A stretch of 36,729 nt of DNA from Opitutia bacterium (GTDB lineage: Bacteria; Verrucomicrobiota; Verrucomicrobiia; Opitutales; UBA953). The stretch is taken from the NCBI GenBank assembly GCA_947373115.1, contig CANBWJ010000002.1:1-36729 (forward strand). Direction: 5' to 3'. The notes beneath the pieces were generated by a model that was given only the letters and a program-made list of their open reading frames with translations, did no database searches and was not told the origin of the DNA. The position numbers were made by a program, and so were the translations under genes. Of this stretch, positions 10,095 to 20,091 are shown one piece after another. Position 1 is the stretch's first letter. Each line of letters starts with the position of its first letter.

Positions 10095-11708
10095 ATGGCG
10101 ACACAAACTTATGACGCAATTATCGTCGGAAGTGGCATCGGAGGCCTGAGCTTTGCGCTCAATTTGGCTAACCGTGGACTTTCTGTCGCCATTGTAACCA
10201 AGAAGAGCAGTTCCGAATCCAATACCAATTGGGCCCAAGGAGGCATCGCTTGTGTCACCGATGAGACCGACGATTTTGCGAGTCATATCAACGATACCCT
10301 TAACGCTGGCGATGGACTCTGTGACCTGAAAGCAGTAGAGCATATCATTAAAGGCGGACCTGCCCGAGTCGCCGAATTGATTCAGTGGGGCGTACAATTT
10401 GAAAACGGTGCTAATGGTCGACCCGATTTGGGGCGTGAAGGTGGACATTCCCAACGTCGCATCCTTCACGCTCGTGATATGACAGGTCGAGCCATCGAAT
10501 CCGCCTTGCTCAAGGCCGTGAGTCTACAACCTAAAATTGAAACACTCGAGTATCACTTTGCGGTCGACCTCATCACGCTCGCCAAAATCGGGCAATGCCC
10601 TGTCGGCTCACCCCAAGACCGGGTCGTCGGTCTGCACGTTTTAGACACGCGCAGTGGGAAAGTTAAAACCCTTTCGGCGACAGTCGTGGTGCTTGCCACA
10701 GGCGGAATTGGCCAAGTCTACCAATTTACAACTAATCCTGACATTGCTACCGGTGACGGTATTGCGATGGCCTATCGTGCCGGTGCAGAGATTCGTGACA
10801 TGGAGATGGTGCAATTCCATCCGACTGCGCTCAAGGCTCCGGATGGCAGTCGGGCTTTGATTTCAGAGGCGGTGCGCGGCGAAGGTGCCATTTTAAGGGA
10901 TACCAATGGTCATGCCTTCATGAAAGATTTTCATCCGATGGGCGACCTCGCCCCACGCGATGTGGTTGCCCGAGCAATTGACTCGGTCATGAAAAAAGAG
11001 GGTTCGCCCCACGTCTTACTCGACGCACGCGAGGTTGCCAAAGGCCACCTAGCAGAACGATTTCCTCATATTTACGCCACCTGCCTGAAGGCGGGCTTTG
11101 ATCTCACGCGCGAGCCGATTCCAGTGGTTCCAGCTGCGCATTACTTGTGTGGTGGGGTTACGACCGACCTAAAAGGACAGACCACACTAAATGGCCTCTT
11201 TGCGGTCGGCGAAGTTGCCTGCACGGGCTTGCATGGTGCCAATCGCTTGGCTTCAAATTCATTACTCGAAGCCGTTGTCTTGGCCTATGATGGTGCGTTG
11301 GCTGCATTCGCGGTGATTCAAAAAAGCAACCGTAGCACGGTTTCCCTTCCCGCTTGGATTGATGGGGCGGCGGGCAATCCAGATGAGCGCGTTGTACTGA
11401 CTCACAACTGGGATGAACTCCGACGGACAATGTGGGATTATGTCGGTATTGTTCGCACCACGAAGCGACTCAAGCGTGCCCAGACACGTGTCGGCACCCT
11501 TAATGATGAGATCGCCGAATACTATTGGAACTTCCGCGTGGAGCCGCGTTTACTCGAGCTGCGTAACTTAATTCAAGTCGCCGAATTAGTGATTAATTGC
11601 GCCCTGCAGCGCCACGAAAGTCGCGGCCTTCATTACACTTTAGACTTTCCTCAACAAGCCGCGGAAGCTCGTCATACCTCGATTCGCCGTCCGATTGCCG
11701 TGTCATGA
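10095..11708 (+). CDS. nadB: L-aspartate oxidase
   Basis: FAD-binding GSGIGGLSFALNLA, SNTNWAQGGIACV, DMEMVQFHPTAL, EAVRGEGAILRDTNG, CGGVTTDLKGQTTLNGLFAVGEVACTGLHGANRLASNSLLE. Confidence 0.95.
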   Translation: MATQTYDAIIVGSGIGGLSFALNLANRGLSVAIVTKKSSSESNTNWAQGGIACVTDETDDFASHINDTLNAGDGLCDLKAVEHIIKGGPARVAELIQWGVQFENGANGRPDLGREGGHSQRRILHARDMTGRAIESALLKAVSLQPKIETLEYHFAVDLITLAKIGQCPVGSPQDRVVGLHVLDTRSGKVKTLSATVVVLATGGIGQVYQFTTNPDIATGDGIAMAYRAGAEIRDMEMVQFHPTALKAPDGSRALISEAVRGEGAILRDTNGHAFMKDFHPMGDLAPRDVVARAIDSVMKKEGSPHVLLDAREVAKGHLAERFPHIYATCLKAGFDLTREPIPVVPAAHYLCGGVTTDLKGQTTLNGLFAVGEVACTGLHGANRLASNSLLEAVVLAYDGALAAFAVIQKSNRSTVSLPAWIDGAAGNPDERVVLTHNWDELRRTMWDYVGIVRTTKRLKRAQTRVGTLNDEIAEYYWNFRVEPRLLELRNLIQVAELVINCALQRHESRGLHYTLDFPQQAAEARHTSIRRPIAVS

Positions 11709-12622
11709 AACTATGCGTAGTGGGTGCAGGCGCCGTCGGCGGTTGGTATGCGGGACTCCTTGCCGAGGCCGGGCATGAAGTCCATTGCGTGACGCGTTCT
11801 GACTACGCCATCATTCAACAACGTGGTTTAGTGTTACGTGATGCCGCGGGTGAGCGTATCGTCAAAGTTGCCTCCGCGCAGCCTGACACATCGGCGATTG
11901 GCCCGTGTGACTTAATTATTGTCGCCGCGAAAGCGACGGCGAACTCCACCTTGCCGCCCGTCATTAAGCCCTTGCTGAGCCCAAACTCAATTTTACTGAC
12001 GCTACAAAATGGCATGGGCAATGTAGAGGCCTTTGCGTCGTTACTTCCCAGTGATCAAATCGTGGCTGGGCTTTGTTTCGTCTGTATTAATCGCACCGCC
12101 TCAGGCGTTATTTTAAATACGATGCACGGTTACGTGCGAATGGCCGCCGCTCAGGGCGATATTAATCCAGCGGTCCATACTTGCGTTAACGCTTTTCGTG
12201 AAGCGGGCGTGGAATGTGAAGCAGAGCCCTCCCTCTCTGCCGTACTCTGGAAAAAACTCTGCTGGAATATTCCATTTAACGGCCTCGCGATTGCTGCCGG
12301 CGGCCTCACGACCGACCAAATCTTAGTCGACCCCGGGCTGCGTCAGCGTGCATTTAATCTTATGAATGAAGTGCGTGAGGCAGCGGAACGATGTGGCGTT
12401 CCGTTTTCTGAAAAACATATCGCCAGACAATTTGCCGTGACGGAAGGAATGGGTGCTTATCGCCCATCCAGTTTAATCGACTACCTGGCAGGTCGCGAGG
12501 TGGAGGTGGACGCCCTTTGGGGCATTCCTTTGCAACGCGGCTTGGCTGCGGGCGCAACGATGCCGGAGTTGCAAAAACTTAAGGACGAAATTTTAATTAA
12601 GCTCGCCCATCGGCGGTCTTAA
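11705..12622 (+). CDS. panE: 2-dehydropantoate 2-reductase family protein
   Basis: MKLCVVGAGAVGGWYAGLLAEAGHEV (Rossmann), LTLQNGMGNVE, LWKKLCWNIPFN, PSSLIDYLAGREVEVDALWG; ATG overlaps nadB TGA (ATGA), so the listed 11597 start is too far upstream. Confidence 0.88.
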   Translation: MKLCVVGAGAVGGWYAGLLAEAGHEVHCVTRSDYAIIQQRGLVLRDAAGERIVKVASAQPDTSAIGPCDLIIVAAKATANSTLPPVIKPLLSPNSILLTLQNGMGNVEAFASLLPSDQIVAGLCFVCINRTASGVILNTMHGYVRMAAAQGDINPAVHTCVNAFREAGVECEAEPSLSAVLWKKLCWNIPFNGLAIAAGGLTTDQILVDPGLRQRAFNLMNEVREAAERCGVPFSEKHIARQFAVTEGMGAYRPSSLIDYLAGREVEVDALWGIPLQRGLAAGATMPELQKLKDEILIKLAHRRS

Positions 12623-12634
12623 GAAATTTCTCAA

Positions 12635-13096
12635 TTACGGTTGAACGGCCGAAACGGCTGATGGCATCGGCCCCAACATCATTGCCACTTCAGCATTCGC
12701 CCGCGACTGAGTCCAAAAAGACGAAGGAATAGCTGGTCCCGTATTACCAGAGAAAATTCGTTTTCCTTTGAGGTTAAAAAGGGTCATCGATAATGAGAGT
12801 GGGCAATCGCCTTGGGAGTTGGACGACGAGATGCCAGTCATCCAAGACATTCGGAGAACGCCTTCCGCTGAGGCCTTGGAGCTTACCACCACGTAGCCGT
12901 GACGAGTGAGTTCCATCGCAATCTTATCAAGAACTGCGGGGGTAATCATTTCGACGGTCGTATTGGTTGAAAGTCTTGTATTCTCAATGTAGACACGCTT
13001 AACGCTGGTAACCTTGGTGCGCTCGGCATTCGCACATCCCAAGAAAGCAAGACTCGTCAAAAAACAGGCAAGCCAGGTTAGGCGGGTTAAGCTCAT
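12635..13096 (-). CDS. Hypothetical lipoprotein
   Basis: From ATG 13096: MSLTRLTWLACFLTSLAFLGCANAER, signal peptide with lipobox LAFLG|C; no specific family recognised. Confidence 0.65.
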   Translation of the reverse strand: MSLTRLTWLACFLTSLAFLGCANAERTKVTSVKRVYIENTRLSTNTTVEMITPAVLDKIAMELTRHGYVVVSSKASAEGVLRMSWMTGISSSNSQGDCPLSLSMTLFNLKGKRIFSGNTGPAIPSSFWTQSRANAEVAMMLGPMPSAVSAVQP

Positions 13097-13167
13097 GCTG
13101 GTTTTTATGGCTACCTTGAGCCTAATCTCAAGACGAGAGACGTACCCACCCAAGATACCTAAGGTTT

Positions 13168-13185
13168 TTCACATGTAATTGTGAA
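13168..13185. promoter_or_regulatory. Dyad TTCACA-N6-TGTGAA in divergent intergenic region
   Basis: ttcacatgtaattgtgaa: two perfect 6-bp arms between the divergent lipoprotein and HAD-DciA genes. Confidence 0.45.
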
Positions 13186-13241
13186 TAAAAGGGCTTTTAG
13201 TGGTGATTTACTTCCCATTTCAACTGCAGCCTAATGCCCAC

Positions 13242-14297
13242 ATGCCCGAGCTCAAAGCCATTACCTTGGACCTCGCTGGCACCCTGCTCTTCCCTTATCC
13301 TAGCGTCGGTGCTGTTTATGCCCGATGTGCGCAGAAGCATGGCATAAATGTCTCGGCTCAAAAATTAGAGAACGCATTTCATACTGCATACGCTCACACG
13401 TCCAAAAATCTTCCGCCGGAAGCCTTTTGGCGTGACGTGGTACTGCGAACTTTTGCTAGCGATCTCCCTTCCGATAAAGCGGATAAAATTGTTGCCGCAT
13501 GCTGGCAGGCTTTTGCCGAGGAGAAGTCGTGGAGGGTGGCTCCGGGTGCCATCAGTGCCCTGACGGCCCTCCGCTTTCTCGGACTTAAAGTTGCGGTCCT
13601 ATCCAATGCCGATGCCCGCCTGCTTCAGGTCTTAAAAGCCAAACAACTCACACCTCATTTCGACGAAATCTTTTTATCGACTGAAATTGGATACGCCAAA
13701 CCTGATGCACGTGCCTTTCAACACTGCGCTCGGGCGTTGGGCGTTGCCCTTTCGGCGCTTGCCCATGCCGGCGACAACCCAGAAGAAGATGGCCAAGGAG
13801 CTTTTGCGGCCGGTGCGGTGGGTATTATTGTCGGCGGTCGCCACGCCCCTCCTAATTGCCTGCGAGCAGAAAAAATTACTGATCTCCCATATGTGGTACG
13901 TGCCTACCTGACCGAAGGAAAACAAAAAGGCAAATTCTCGCGCAACGTCCAAAACCTACTCGCCAATTTACGCGGCGTCCCGGAGGACCGGGGCCGTTCG
14001 ACTTCGCGCAGCGCCAAGAGCCTGGATGAAGCGATGACGGAAGTTTTTCAGAAGCTTCGCTTTGATCGCATTACACCCGAAGACACAATAATTGCGCAGT
14101 GGCATACGCTCTTGCCAATTAAATTAGCCAAGCGTTGTGCGCCCTTAAAAGTCCACGACGACGGGAAACTCATTGTGCAGTGCGAAAGCAGTATCGTAAA
14201 GACGGAGGTTCAATTTCACGCCAAAGCGATGCTGGCGAAAATTAAACTACTCCCCGGTTGCCAGAGCATCCGGGTACTCACTTTGACCAGCGTTTAG
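13242..14297 (+). CDS. HAD-superfamily hydrolase with C-terminal DciA/DUF721-like domain (fusion)
   Basis: N-term HAD: ITLDLAGTLL, VAVLSNAD, EIGYAKPDARAFQHCARALGV, HAGDNPEEDGQGAFAAGAVGIIV; C-term about 13932-14297: FSRNVQNLLANLRG...SLDEAMTEVFQKLRFDRITPEDTIIAQWHTLLPIKLAKRCAPLKVHDDGKLIVQCESSIVKTEVQFHAKAMLAKIKLLPGCQSIRVLTL. Confidence 0.75.
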   Translation: MPELKAITLDLAGTLLFPYPSVGAVYARCAQKHGINVSAQKLENAFHTAYAHTSKNLPPEAFWRDVVLRTFASDLPSDKADKIVAACWQAFAEEKSWRVAPGAISALTALRFLGLKVAVLSNADARLLQVLKAKQLTPHFDEIFLSTEIGYAKPDARAFQHCARALGVALSALAHAGDNPEEDGQGAFAAGAVGIIVGGRHAPPNCLRAEKITDLPYVVRAYLTEGKQKGKFSRNVQNLLANLRGVPEDRGRSTSRSAKSLDEAMTEVFQKLRFDRITPEDTIIAQWHTLLPIKLAKRCAPLKVHDDGKLIVQCESSIVKTEVQFHAKAMLAKIKLLPGCQSIRVLTLTSV

Positions 14298-14689
14298 GCT
14301 TTTAGATTGGGCTCAAACGGACGTAGAAAAGCGTCTTTGAAGTCAAAAACGTTCTCAAAATCCTCCAAGCGGTCTTCGTCGGAGCGTCCAAACATGCCCG
14401 TGCTAATAATGTTGAAAACGATGTGCCCAACGTCGACCGATTTTTTAATACCCCAGCTGTGTAAGAGTGTGTAGGACATGGGTCCATAAGTCTCGAGCAC
14501 ATGCTGGCGGAAGCCTTCGAGTAACTGCGGACCAGTGACATGACGATTGGGCTGCAACTTGTTTTTTTTAATTTCGCCGTGCACGTTCTTCTGAGCCAAG
14601 TCCAGCGACAGACGTACTAATTGGTAAGCTTGCGGCATGTAGCGCTTATCCTTTTGGCAGAGTTGCCGAATGGCTTCCTCGAAGTCCAT
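14294..14689 (-). CDS. Minf_1886 / TIGR04138-type protein (Planctomycetes-Verrucomicrobia restricted family of unknown function)
   Basis: MDFEEAIRQLCQKDKRYMPQAYQLVRLSLDLAQ...HVTGPQLLEGFRQHVLETYGPMSYTLLHSWGIKKSVDVGHIVFNII; recalled resemblance to this family. Confidence 0.7.
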   Translation of the reverse strand: MDFEEAIRQLCQKDKRYMPQAYQLVRLSLDLAQKNVHGEIKKNKLQPNRHVTGPQLLEGFRQHVLETYGPMSYTLLHSWGIKKSVDVGHIVFNIISTGMFGRSDEDRLEDFENVFDFKDAFLRPFEPNLKA

Positions 14690-15780
14690 TATTTAAGTCG
14701 CGCGAGCTCCGCAAGGAGTCGGGCATTTTGAGATTCCGTCCCCACTGTAATACGCAGCCAACCCGTCATACCATAACCGCGTAACGGGCGGACAATTACA
14801 CCTGCCTTCTGTAAGGACTGGAAGGTGGCGTCGGCATTCGGGATTTCAGCTGCTAAGAAGTTGGCCTTACCGTCGATGTATTTATAACCCAACTGATTCA
14901 GGCCATGTTTAAGTTGGGCAATACCCGTGGCATTAACGGCTTTAGAATGTGCCAGGAATGCTTGATCATCGAGGGCGGCTTCAGCTGCGGCCAAGGCGGG
15001 TAAGTTGACATTAAATGGCTGACGAACCCGATTTAACAATCCGCAGACTTCGCTGGATCCCAATAAGTAGCCCACGCGCAATCCGGCTAAGCCATAGGCC
15101 TTAGAGAAGGTGCGGGTGACCACGACCTTACGTCCGGCTTTAATCAACGCTCGCATATCAGCTGAGGCGTCTAAGTACTCGGTGTAAGCTTCATCTAAGC
15201 AGAAGATGACGTTATCCGGAAGTGACTGAGCCAGGGCGATAATGTCTTCGGGTTTATCTGTGCCGCCGGTCGGATTATTCGGGCTAGCCAAAAACATAAT
15301 GCGCGTGCGCTCCGTTACCGCTGCTCGCATCGCTTTAAGGTCGTGACAATAATTAGGCATCGGCACTTCCACCGGGGTCGCACCTTGGAGCAGCGTGGCT
15401 AATTTGTAGACAATGAAGGCTTGTGACCCGAAAACGACTTCGTCGCCGGGGCGGAGAAACGCTTGTGCGAGTAAAATCATCACTTCGTTGGAACCGTTCC
15501 CAATCACAAATTGATTCGGTTCCATGGACCAGACTTTGGCTAATTTTTCTCTCAGGAAAGTGCTGCCGCCATCGGGATACAGGTGACAATTGGCCAACGC
15601 CTTTTGGGCAGCGGCCAGACCTAACGGTGAAGGACCCAGTGGATTTTCATTCGAGGCTAGTTTAATCACCGTTTGAGGATCCAAGCCAAATTCACGTGCC
15701 ACGACTTCGATGGGCCGACCCGCTTCGTAAACCGGTTGGGATAAGACGGGTCGATTCGCCATTTCCGAATAAGTAGGCAT
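14689..15780 (-). CDS. hisC: Histidinol-phosphate aminotransferase
   Basis: KLASNENPLGPSP, GNGSNEVMILLAQAFL, SPNNPTGG, DEAYTEY, TRTFSKAYGLAGLRVGYLLG, VRQPFNVN. Confidence 0.95.
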   Translation of the reverse strand: MPTYSEMANRPVLSQPVYEAGRPIEVVAREFGLDPQTVIKLASNENPLGPSPLGLAAAQKALANCHLYPDGGSTFLREKLAKVWSMEPNQFVIGNGSNEVMILLAQAFLRPGDEVVFGSQAFIVYKLATLLQGATPVEVPMPNYCHDLKAMRAAVTERTRIMFLASPNNPTGGTDKPEDIIALAQSLPDNVIFCLDEAYTEYLDASADMRALIKAGRKVVVTRTFSKAYGLAGLRVGYLLGSSEVCGLLNRVRQPFNVNLPALAAAEAALDDQAFLAHSKAVNATGIAQLKHGLNQLGYKYIDGKANFLAAEIPNADATFQSLQKAGVIVRPLRGYGMTGWLRITVGTESQNARLLAELARLK

Positions 15781-15812
15781 AAAATTAATATGAAGAGTAG
15801 TTTTGCGTTTTT

Positions 15813-15843
15813 GGCAAGCGTACCCCTTGCCTCCCCGCTTGCC
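15813..15843. repeat. Inverted repeat GGCAAGCG/CGCTTGCC with internal second CTTGCC
   Basis: 8-bp perfect arms 15813-15820 and 15836-15843; additional CTTGCC at 15826-15831 can pair with GGCAAG 15813-15818. Confidence 0.75.
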
Positions 15844-15873
15844 TAATGTCCCAAATTAAGTGTCATTGGCTCG

Positions 15874-16839
15874 ATGCGTATCATCGTCACAGGGGCGACA
15901 GGTTTTGCCGGACGTGAGGTCGTGCGTGCGGCTTTGCGGCGTGGGCACGAGGTTTTGGCTATCGGTGGTAAAAATACACCCCGTGCCCCTGATTTAAAAC
16001 GCATACTGAATCTGGACCTCACCGATCGGGCTAAGGTGGAGGCTCTTATCTTGGACGAGTTTCCGCAGGCGATTATTAATTGTGCTGCCCTTGCCACAAT
16101 CGAGTCCTGTCAGCTCAACCCTACGCTCGCTACCCAACTTAATACCGACCTTCCCGCTCAGCTGGCACAACTGAGTTTTCACGTCGGTGCTAAGTTAATC
16201 CACTTCTCTACCGATATGGTCTTTGACGGTGCACGAGGGAATTACGGACACACGGAGCAGACCAACCCCCTTCACCTCTACGGTAAAACCAAAGCGGCAG
16301 GTGAAATTGATGTACTCAAATACGGACGTGAGCATGCGGCGGTGATTCGGACCTCTTTATTAAATGGAAATTCTCCGACTGGCGAACGCGGTATTCATGA
16401 GCGGCTATTCCTCGATTGGTCGTCAGGAAAATCCTCCACCCTCTTCACGGATGAAATTCGCCAACCGGTTTCCGCCAGCAACCTCGCTGATGTGGCCGTT
16501 GAACTTTGTGAACGGCCCAACCTTTCTGGCGTCTACCACTGGGCTGGCTTAGCGCCGATTAGCCGGTTTGAGATGGGACAAGCGATTGCGGAATATTTCG
16601 GTCTCGATGCGAAGAAGTATGTTCAGGCGAGCCAGCGCCAAGACCACCCACAGCACGCCCAACGTCCGCGAGATTTAAGCCTCCAGTTACACCCACTGGC
16701 GGGCAAATTACGCACCCCCGCTCAGCCATTCGTCGATCAACTCAATGAATTACGCGTTCCCCGTGGTTGCGAAGCATGGTACGAGCAAGAAACCGGTCGA
16801 AAGGTCGTGCGTCTGCTCGAAAAGGGCGTAGACTTCTAA
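15874..16839 (+). CDS. SDR family sugar-nucleotide reductase (dTDP-4-dehydrorhamnose reductase-like, RmlD substrate-binding family)
   Basis: MRIIVTGATGFAGREVVRAALRRGHEV, INCAALATIESCQLNP, HFSTDMVFDGARGNYGHTEQTNPLHLYGKTKAAGE. Confidence 0.8.
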   Translation: MRIIVTGATGFAGREVVRAALRRGHEVLAIGGKNTPRAPDLKRILNLDLTDRAKVEALILDEFPQAIINCAALATIESCQLNPTLATQLNTDLPAQLAQLSFHVGAKLIHFSTDMVFDGARGNYGHTEQTNPLHLYGKTKAAGEIDVLKYGREHAAVIRTSLLNGNSPTGERGIHERLFLDWSSGKSSTLFTDEIRQPVSASNLADVAVELCERPNLSGVYHWAGLAPISRFEMGQAIAEYFGLDAKKYVQASQRQDHPQHAQRPRDLSLQLHPLAGKLRTPAQPFVDQLNELRVPRGCEAWYEQETGRKVVRLLEKGVDF

Positions 16840-16840
16840 G

Positions 16841-17536
16841 ATGGACGTCTTACCCCGAGAGTCTTGTACCGCCGTTGCCAACATGGCCAACAATTGTTTG
16901 TTGCTCGAGCACTACCCACACCCCGAGCGCATTCGTTATCGACCCTTTGCGTGGTCGGAATTGGCTTACACTTTTGGCGTATCCCAAAAGTGGACCACCT
17001 ATCGCGGCGTGGTGCCGCATCACATTCCTTTAGTTCGTCGCTGCACGGGTGGAGGTTTAGTTTCACACTTAGAAGACTGGACCTTCGCTATTGCGATTCC
17101 AGCTGACCACGAACTTTATAAAGCGGACGCCAACCAAGCTTACGCGGTTGTGCATCAAGCGCTACTTGAATGTTTATTGAGTCAAAAATTACCGGTTGAA
17201 TTGGTTTTACATCCCATGTCGTCCCGCCCGTTTAAGGCGCCCGATCAATGCGAGACGAATGCCGAGCCTCACGACCTTGTACTAAAGTCTGATGGTCGAA
17301 AAGTGGCCGGTGCCGCTCAACGTCGAACCAGGCACGGACTCCTTTTAGAGGGTTATATTTCCCGCCCCTTACTAGCGGGCTGTAACTGGAGTAAGTTTGA
17401 AGAAGATTTTCCACGTGCACTTGGTGCGGCGCTTAAGAGTCCCCCTGTCCCAGTTTCTTCGCCTATCTACGATCAGTCCGACCACGAAGGAATGTGGGCG
17501 AAGTTTAACTCTTGTGCCTGGAACCAGCGGATTTAA
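16841..17536 (+). CDS. Lipoate/biotin-protein ligase family protein (LplA-like)
   Basis: PLVRRCTGGGLVSHLEDWTFAIAIP and DGRKVAGAAQRRTRHGLLLEGYI, matching RRxTGGGxVxH and GKKxxGxAQRR patterns. Confidence 0.8.
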   Translation: MDVLPRESCTAVANMANNCLLLEHYPHPERIRYRPFAWSELAYTFGVSQKWTTYRGVVPHHIPLVRRCTGGGLVSHLEDWTFAIAIPADHELYKADANQAYAVVHQALLECLLSQKLPVELVLHPMSSRPFKAPDQCETNAEPHDLVLKSDGRKVAGAAQRRTRHGLLLEGYISRPLLAGCNWSKFEEDFPRALGAALKSPPVPVSSPIYDQSDHEGMWAKFNSCAWNQRI

Positions 17537-20091
17537 CTGAATAAATCTAACTGCGGTCCTGGTCCCTTTGGTGCCTCCTTCGACGACTTTACCTTGGCCA
17601 CGGGACTGACGGGCTTTTTCTCGATCTGTGAGAGGTCCGCAATCGGTACCTTATCATTCACAGGTAAACGCCCCGCGTCTTCGAGCCCCGATAAAATTTC
17701 ACGGGCACGCTTAACCACGGTCGGCGGCATGCCCGCCAATCGGGCGACTTGAATACCGTACGAACGATCCGCCGCACCCGGTACGACCTGGCGGACGAAA
17801 ACGATTTCGTCCTGCCACTCTTTCACGGCAACCGACCAATTGCGTAAGCGTTTTAATTCACCCGCGAGTTTAGTTAGTTCGTGGTAATGGGTGGCGAAAA
17901 GCGTTCGTGCACCCGCTTCGCCCGTACCGTGCAAGTATTCCGCGACGGCCCAAGCGATACTGATACCATCATAGGTGCTCGTGCCTCGCCCGATTTCATC
18001 AAGCACAACTAAAGAGCGCTCCGTCGCATTATTTAAAATATTAGCGGTCTCATTCATCTCCACCATGAAAGTAGAATTACCGCGGGCCAATTCATCAGAC
18101 GCCCCGACGCGACAAAATATTCGATCAATCAACCCCACGCGGGCCGACTGTGCCGGAACCCAGCAGCCAAGGTGCGCCATCAGGGCAATCAAGGCGACCT
18201 GACGAATGTACGTCGACTTACCCGCCATATTCGGGCCTGTGATCAGGGCGATTTGTTCGCCGCGGCTACTCAGTCGGGTGTCATTGGGAACAAAGGCCCC
18301 CGCCCCGGCACGGCTGTTCAGCATTCGCTCCACCACGGGGTGACGGCCCTGCACGATTTCCAAAACGTCCGAGTCATCCACGGTTGGGCAAATCCACTTA
18401 TGGGTGCGAGCCAACTCTGCCCAGCCACGCAGGGTATCGATTTCCGCCAAGGCTTGGGCGGTTGATAACAAGGACTCTGTACGTGCTAAAACCGATGCTA
18501 ATAAATTTTGGAATAATTCCAGTTCGCGGGCGAGGGCGAGTTCATCCGCTCTCAATACTTCTCTTTCTTTAACCCGCAGCTCTTCGGTCGTAAAACGCTC
18601 CGCATTCACCATCGTCTGCTTGCGAATGTAATCCGCTGGCACTTGGGCAAGATTCGACTTCGTAACCTCGATGGCATAACCAAAGGCGCCGTTATACCTT
18701 ACTTTAAGATTCTTAATCCCGGTGCGTTGTTGTTCCCGACTTTCGAAATCAAGAATCCACTGCTTACTATCCGTCGCCAATGAGCGCAGTCGATCCAGCT
18801 CAGCATCGTAGCCCAAGCGCAAGGCCCCGCCCGCAGTCAGATCGACCGGTAATTCATCCGCCAAGGCCTGTACTAAGAGTTTATAAAGGTCGCTCTCTAG
18901 ATTAATGCGCTCGGCATAGAGTTTGAGCGTGGAATTGGAGAGCCCTTCGAGTTCCTCGCGAAGTACAGGGAGAACTTTTAGGGTATCGCGTATGCCGCCG
19001 AGTTCACGCGGGTTTCTTAACCGATTTTGAAGTCGGGCAATGATACGTGGTAAGTCGCTCATCGTATGTAGGGCTTCGCCTAATCGTGTAGAGGCCCCGG
19101 AGTGCTTATAAAAAACTTCCACGACCGCTTGTCGGCCCTGGATGACTTTGAGGTCGGTTGAAGGTTCCGCCAACCACATCGCCAAGAGTCGGGCGCCACC
19201 AGGCGTGCAGGTACCATCAATCGTCTCTAATAAGGATGTTTCACGTGCACCCTGAGTAGAGCTGAACAGTTCCAGGTTTTTCGCCGAGGCCGCATCCAAG
19301 AGCACGGCCGCACCGAGTTTTACTTCGGAGATTTTAAAAAGGTTTTTGGGGCGCTCACAGAGTGAATCGGTGACGTACCCTAAAACCGCACCCGCCGCAC
19401 CCAGTGCCGCATGGTCATCCTTTAACCCAAAGCCTGCGAGGCTGTGTACGGCTAAAACCTGTGACACCAAGCGTGCGCCTGCACTGACGTCGAAATTCCA
19501 GCCCGGTAGGCGTGACACGGCCCTGCCCTCTAAAAAGGCTTCAAGGGTTGAGCGTTGGGCGTCTGAAATTTCTAATCCTTCTGGCAGCAAGACTTCGCGT
19601 GGATTAAGCGCATACAGGAGGGGCAATAAGTTTTGCGAGGTAACGTCGGTGGCTAAACGGAAATCTGCGGTGGAGACATCGAGCCATGATGCATGCCAAC
19701 CCGACTTATCCCAATAGAGTGCCAATAAATAATTACCCCGACGTGAATCCAGTTGGGAGTCTTCTATGGCTGTCCCAGGCGTAAGAATGCGGGTAATGCC
19801 ACGGCGCACCAGCTTACCCGTTGTTGGCGCTTCTAGTTGATCGCAAATCGCTACCTTCCAGCCAGCAGCTAACAATCGATTCACGTACGCGGGTGCCGCA
19901 TGATAGGGCAAGCCAGCCATCGGCGTTTCATGACGTTTCGTCAGCGTCAGGCCAATAACCTTGGAGGCTACGACCGCATCTTCGCCAAATACTTCATAGA
20001 AGTCGCCCAAGCGAAACAGGAGTAAAGTACCCGGAGCGAGTTTCTCCCGCATTTCGCGGTACTGACGCTGCATAGGGGTTTCTTTTTCCAC
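17533..20091 (-). CDS. mutS: DNA mismatch repair protein MutS
   Basis: LLFRLGDFYEVFGEDA (FxE mismatch motif), GPNMAGKSTYIRQVALI Walker A, DEIGRGTSTYDGISIAWAVAEYL. Confidence 0.97.
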   Translation of the reverse strand: MEKETPMQRQYREMREKLAPGTLLLFRLGDFYEVFGEDAVVASKVIGLTLTKRHETPMAGLPYHAAPAYVNRLLAAGWKVAICDQLEAPTTGKLVRRGITRILTPGTAIEDSQLDSRRGNYLLALYWDKSGWHASWLDVSTADFRLATDVTSQNLLPLLYALNPREVLLPEGLEISDAQRSTLEAFLEGRAVSRLPGWNFDVSAGARLVSQVLAVHSLAGFGLKDDHAALGAAGAVLGYVTDSLCERPKNLFKISEVKLGAAVLLDAASAKNLELFSSTQGARETSLLETIDGTCTPGGARLLAMWLAEPSTDLKVIQGRQAVVEVFYKHSGASTRLGEALHTMSDLPRIIARLQNRLRNPRELGGIRDTLKVLPVLREELEGLSNSTLKLYAERINLESDLYKLLVQALADELPVDLTAGGALRLGYDAELDRLRSLATDSKQWILDFESREQQRTGIKNLKVRYNGAFGYAIEVTKSNLAQVPADYIRKQTMVNAERFTTEELRVKEREVLRADELALARELELFQNLLASVLARTESLLSTAQALAEIDTLRGWAELARTHKWICPTVDDSDVLEIVQGRHPVVERMLNSRAGAGAFVPNDTRLSSRGEQIALITGPNMAGKSTYIRQVALIALMAHLGCWVPAQSARVGLIDRIFCRVGASDELARGNSTFMVEMNETANILNNATERSLVVLDEIGRGTSTYDGISIAWAVAEYLHGTGEAGARTLFATHYHELTKLAGELKRLRNWSVAVKEWQDEIVFVRQVVPGAADRSYGIQVARLAGMPPTVVKRAREILSGLEDAGRLPVNDKVPIADLSQIEKKPVSPVAKVKSSKEAPKGPGPQLDLFS

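Follow-up and report, generated by a model that had tools for sequence, protein, structure and literature searches.

The window analysed here, a 36,729-nt stretch of DNA at the start of contig CANBWJ010000002.1 of an Opitutia genome, carries a gene that encodes a HAD domain and a DciA/DUF721 domain in one reading frame, and this HAD-DciA fusion is real and conserved. DciA is the ancestral bacterial loader of DnaB and is normally a small independent protein. In this uncultured Opitutae family, the only recognisable DciA comes with an enzyme-like HAD domain permanently attached. The gene and its parts are as follows (positions are those of the window):

13242–14297, forward strand: HAD-DciA fusion gene, 351 aa plus a TAG stop
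13254–13814, forward strand: HAD domain, REG-2/HDHD3-like, with cap helices (residues 5–191; PF00702, E = 2.6e-19)
13269–13283, forward strand: HAD motif I, DLAGT (residues 10–14), with the nucleophile D10 present and Ala12 at the D+2 position
13602–13604, forward strand: HAD motif II, Ser121, invariant in 32 fused proteins
13698–13700, forward strand: HAD motif III, Lys153, invariant in 32 fused proteins
13773–13790, forward strand: HAD motif IV, D178 to D183 in GDNPEED, with D183 invariant and D178 conserved in at least 90%
13929–14015, forward strand: DciA N-terminal extension (residues 230–258), equal to the start of a stand-alone DciA
14022–14294, forward strand: DciA/DUF721 KH-like domain with the conserved Trp287 (residues 261–351; PF05258 at 261–335)

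Translation of the window from the ATG at 13242 to the TAG gives 351 residues with no internal stops. The open frame extends upstream as far as a GTG at 13200, and the start codon common to relatives is the ATG, not this GTG. A sequence-only reading of the DNA had described the two domains in one frame, and had suggested looking for PF05258 in the C-terminal segment, for a separate dciA in the genome and for the fusion in related Verrucomicrobiota. A Pfam search of the fused protein placed both domains above the curated cut-offs, PF00702 at residues 5–191 and PF05258 at residues 261–335 (E = 1.1e-10 for the whole protein). The C-terminal part on its own also matched PF05258 (E = 2.3e-11, 44.2 bits, compared with 42.0 bits for the whole protein and a cut-off of 24). 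Alignment with stand-alone DciAs upheld the DciA part proposed in that reading and moved its start from about 13932 to 13929 (residue 230). The full-length model of the fused protein (mean pLDDT 89.5, pTM 0.63) has low confidence at residues 226–231 and 252–256; the HAD and DciA domains are each predicted to be well folded, and at this pTM their relative arrangement is loosely defined.

The joint between the two halves is conserved. The 32 fused proteins that were aligned are 350–351 aa long in 351 columns, and the junction peptide GKFSRxVxNLLANLRG is kept across species while its codons vary. As the junction DNA varies and the peptide is kept, an indel in the A-rich stretch at the junction, GAAGGAAAACAAAAAGG, cannot be the cause of the fusion, in agreement with the sequence-only reading, which had favoured a true fusion over an indel at that position. 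Relatives were searched for a two-gene form with a frameshift, and none with a frameshift was seen. That an indel or misassembly has joined two separate genes is a notion to which we assign practically no probability: the A-rich junction had been pointed out beforehand, and the window comes from a MAG in 132 contigs that is 82% complete, yet dozens of independent assemblies show the identical in-frame joint, among them an 8-contig assembly (G152) and one with the joint on a 490-kb contig (G417). A sequencing or assembly artefact is thus ruled out by the many relatives with an intact fusion. An A/G-rich, Shine-Dalgarno-like stretch at about 13914–13931 lies where the start of an unfused dciA would sit, and could indicate that an internal start near the junction also yields free DciA, with the fused form being one product among others. 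This is very improbable, and was rejected, because near residue 230 the fused genes have no common in-frame ATG, GTG or TTG, the nearest being sporadic.

Intact, full-length fusions were found in 29 of 36 other genomes of the same genus (48–61% identity). Two others (G020 and G023) have pieces that end at contig ends, and the five without a usable match are all incomplete MAGs. Two more Opitutae MAGs carry the fusion at 93% and 78% identity. One MAG (G021) has two different fused copies, on contigs C10 and C29, and since the score of the C29 copy is close to that of the G015 copy, contamination is likely. Profiles of the fused protein were run on three overlapping samples, with 286 genomes from the class, 284 from the order and 388 from the phylum. 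The conservation among related Verrucomicrobiota that the sequence-only reading had left to be checked extends, beyond the genus, to all five genera seen of the window's family (g1, g22, g153, g154 and g155), where full-length fused frames were present; the frames of representatives were read. No fusions were seen outside this family in the three samples, and no reversal to separate genes was seen across the five genera. The length of the linker varies strongly from genus to genus in the family, and in genus g22 extra residues inserted after the DciA N-terminal extension and before the KH-like domain make the protein longer.

The surroundings of the gene were also compared. A block of genes, nadB-panE-fusion-Minf_1886-hisC-rmlD-lplA-mutS (nt 10095–20091), is conserved across genus g1 but not in the sister genus g22, where the neighbourhood of the fusion differs; mutS and the Minf_1886 gene were named by family search, the other genes mostly from reading the sequence. 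The Minf_1886 family protein (TIGR04138, 2.4e-38) is encoded at 14294–14689 on the reverse strand, convergent with the fusion gene, and the ends of these two genes share 4 bases. On the other side, a small lipoprotein-like reading frame (12635–13153, reverse strand) has no Pfam match; it is 84, 62 and 32% identical in loci L080, L081 and L093, and was not found beside the fusion in four other loci of the same genus.

PF05258 matches nothing but the fused gene in the window's own genome (a MAG, 82% complete), and this gene is the only match above the cut-off in three relatives that are 99%, 99% and 98% complete (G152, G019 and G202); the search for a second, separate dciA thus returned none above the cut-off in these four genomes. 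DnaB is present once per genome in the four genomes of the family (f1) that were checked. The f1 genomes checked gave one match each to PF01695 (DnaC-type), in frames of 460–490 aa, and the one inspected, that of the window's genome, reads as DnaA. No DnaC or DnaI was recognised beside DciA and DnaB in the f1 genomes checked, of which the window's own is 82% complete.

In other families of the order, HAD and DciA are separate proteins. At least six families (f5, f8, f15, f18, f20 and f21) have the HAD gene immediately upstream of dciA and in the same orientation, and the genes of such pairs may overlap by 4 bp, as ATGA in G040 and G399 and as GTGA in G393. One candidate for a further fusion, in G362 (family f8), was ruled out, as a stop separates its two genes; in G265 the HAD and dciA genes share a frame but are separated by a TAA and about 18 bases. 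Given these separate neighbouring genes in related families, the single gene is explained by read-through fusion of two linked genes. A tree built from 44 HAD domains places the 18 members from fusions on one side of a branch with support of 100/96, in agreement with a single fusion event. The DciA alignment is too short for its tree to resolve the fused group, and the starred branches of that tree are compatible with one origin. Since linked and unlinked HADs are intermixed in the HAD tree, the adjacency of the two genes may date far back and have been lost several times. Some relatives carry the HAD gene elsewhere in the genome, away from dciA, and most genomes of family f14 lack a strong match to the HAD half.

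Nothing of DciA has been lost in the fusion, as residue 230 of the fused protein aligns with Met1 of stand-alone DciAs beginning MxFSR, and the stand-alone DciAs of the order and the fused DciA part share the same C-terminal end. Within the genus, no other part of the fused protein is as conserved as residues 230–258 (entropy 0.49 versus 0.66–0.98 elsewhere), and a helix is predicted at residues 234–244. Foldseek searches with the model of residues 230–351 returned 7YKM (probability 1.00, TM 0.73 by target) and 8A3V (probability 1.00) as best matches, and a profile of the order's DciAs matched the solved domains 7YKM (3.2e-6) and, weakly, 8A3V (0.0063). Trp287 occurs without exception in the 23 DciAs compared from the order; the conserved Trp of the domain in Mtb is W113 (PMC5720831). 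In C. crescentus DciA, ssDNA is bound by Arg106/Leu119 (PMC12547741), and K333 is the likely counterpart of Arg106, a match made by spacing only. The N-terminal extension of C. crescentus DciA has been shown to bind ssDNA, and by analogy the conserved extension of the fused protein is a candidate for DnaB contact or ssDNA binding.

The HAD half is closest, among NCBIfam families, to the REG-2-like HADs, with a match to TIGR02252 (E = 1.3e-41) of 142.6 bits that is below the cut-off of 155.2; the linked, unfused HAD of G055 scores 155.6 bits. The phosphonatase-like family TIGR03351 gave 22.4 bits against a cut-off of 218.9. The closest solved structure is human HDHD3 (PDB 3K1Z; 8.9e-24 by sequence and 2.3e-17 by fold). 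The nucleophile D10, together with A12, S121, K153 and D183, is invariant in the 32 aligned fused proteins. The second Asp of motif I, the general acid-base of HAD phosphatases (PMC12715507), is absent from all 44 proteins compared, whether fused, linked or unlinked, and is replaced by A, G, T, V or F. Its absence from all three groups suggests that the loss, most simply, precedes the fusion. The sequence-only reading had called this domain phosphatase-like: the HAD assignment holds, and the phosphatase label is weakened by the lack of this residue throughout the lineage. D178 is replaced by N in two loci of genus g1 (L039 and L042), so that motif IV reads GN in place of GD, as it also does in three loci of family f8 (L113, L125 and L126); this hints at relaxed catalysis in some members. 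Both halves are under purifying selection, judging from median dN/dS values of 0.10 for the HAD half (127 pairs) and 0.045 for the DciA half.

An account that fits these observations starts from two genes that were already neighbours, a REG-2/HDHD3-like HAD gene and, downstream of it, dciA. The stop and start between them would have been lost once, in the ancestor of the window's family. The DciA half would still be the cell's DnaB loader, with its N-terminal extension and KH-like domain binding DnaB and ssDNA. The HAD half would be a folded and selected domain that has kept its nucleophile, Ser, Lys and acidic motif and has lost the acid/base Asp. Its most likely task would be to bind a partner or a phosphorylated ligand as a tethered docking or regulatory module; efficient action as a general phosphatase would be less likely. 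Both DnaB loading by the DciA half and the role of the HAD half are inferred, and we put the account as a whole (one-time read-through fusion, working DciA loader, HAD docking or regulatory module) forward tentatively, as having somewhat less than an even chance of being correct.

Three observations lead us to prefer the docking or regulatory reading of the HAD half: its pairing with DciA is seen in several families, the fusion has lasted in five genera, and the acid/base residue is lacking; the HAD half is more likely such a module than a standard phosphatase. Against it, no linked HAD accompanies DciA in many relatives, and conservation alone does not separate functional coupling from mere co-expression. 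It is quite conceivable, though somewhat less likely than the account above, that the read-through union is harmless or merely fixes stoichiometry, the HAD being an independent metabolic enzyme and loading being unaffected. The HAD and dciA genes are, after all, co-directional neighbours already in several families, the HAD keeps its own conserved active-site residues, its gene is found elsewhere in the genome in some relatives, and the linker is of very different length in different genera; yet the fusion has lasted across the five genera with no reversal seen, and the adjacency recurs over several families. We know of no metabolic link between the HAD and replication that by itself would favour the neighbourhood, which also counts against co-expression. 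A second possibility, which we consider rather improbable, is that the HAD half is an active hydrolase brought by DciA to the fork or origin, where it might act on a nucleotide or a phosphorylated protein, for example. The invariant D10, S121, K153 and D183 and the purifying selection on this half would suit such an enzyme, but every fused protein checked has A, V, T or F in place of the acid/base Asp (PMC12715507), the one in the window having Ala, D178 is N in two genomes, and the literature search turned up no substrate assigned to HDHD3, the closest solved relative. On a further reading, the HAD half may be a built-in loading switch, whose catalytically weakened pocket binds a phosphorylated metabolite, a nucleotide or a partner protein; this is unlikely on present evidence but, if true, would couple replication initiation to cell state in the window's family. 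That the tethered domain could link helicase loading to a metabolite or a phosphorylated substrate was a suggestion of the sequence-only reading.

HAD-DciA is apparently an undescribed arrangement of a known helicase loader. No description of such a fusion was found in a literature search that did not reach Blaine et al. 2022, the main DciA architecture survey, to which a report of great diversity is credited in PMC9912922. The fusion bears on the mechanism by which DciA loads DnaB and on whether a partner is required: a study of the V. cholerae complex remarks that the KH-like fold is all there is to some DciAs and that another cofactor has probably yet to be identified (PMC9912922). Here, one specific domain is covalently attached to such a short DciA, and its gene is a neighbour of dciA in several related families, which makes that domain a candidate partner of DciA. 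The candidate partnership also concerns the relatives in which HAD and DciA are separate proteins.

Like known DciAs, the fused DciA has a domain that scores above the Pfam cut-off, a KH-like fold and a single copy beside DnaB, and like the other DciAs of the order it keeps the N-terminal extension; unlike known DciAs, it has a HAD domain joined to its N-terminus. The DciAs of C. crescentus and V. cholerae hold DnaB through a C-terminal region or helix (PMC12547741, PMC9912922), whereas those of the order, fused or not, end after the KH domain. The latter share an N-terminal segment of the NLIAxLRGLP type and lack a C-terminal extension, in which they differ from the proteobacterial DciAs studied. 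Compared with HDHD3, which reads DVKDT in the alignment, the fused HAD has likewise lost the second Asp of motif I, but it differs from HDHD3 and the REG-2-like HADs in bearing a helicase loader at its C-terminus, and from the REG-2-like HADs in falling below the TIGR02252 cut-off. A further parallel is provided by the stand-alone HAD/dciA neighbours of other Opitutae, which specify the same two proteins in the same order and on the same strand, with DciA homologous from end to end; there the pair consists of two genes, overlapping by 4 bp or lying up to roughly a hundred or more bases apart, and here it is one.
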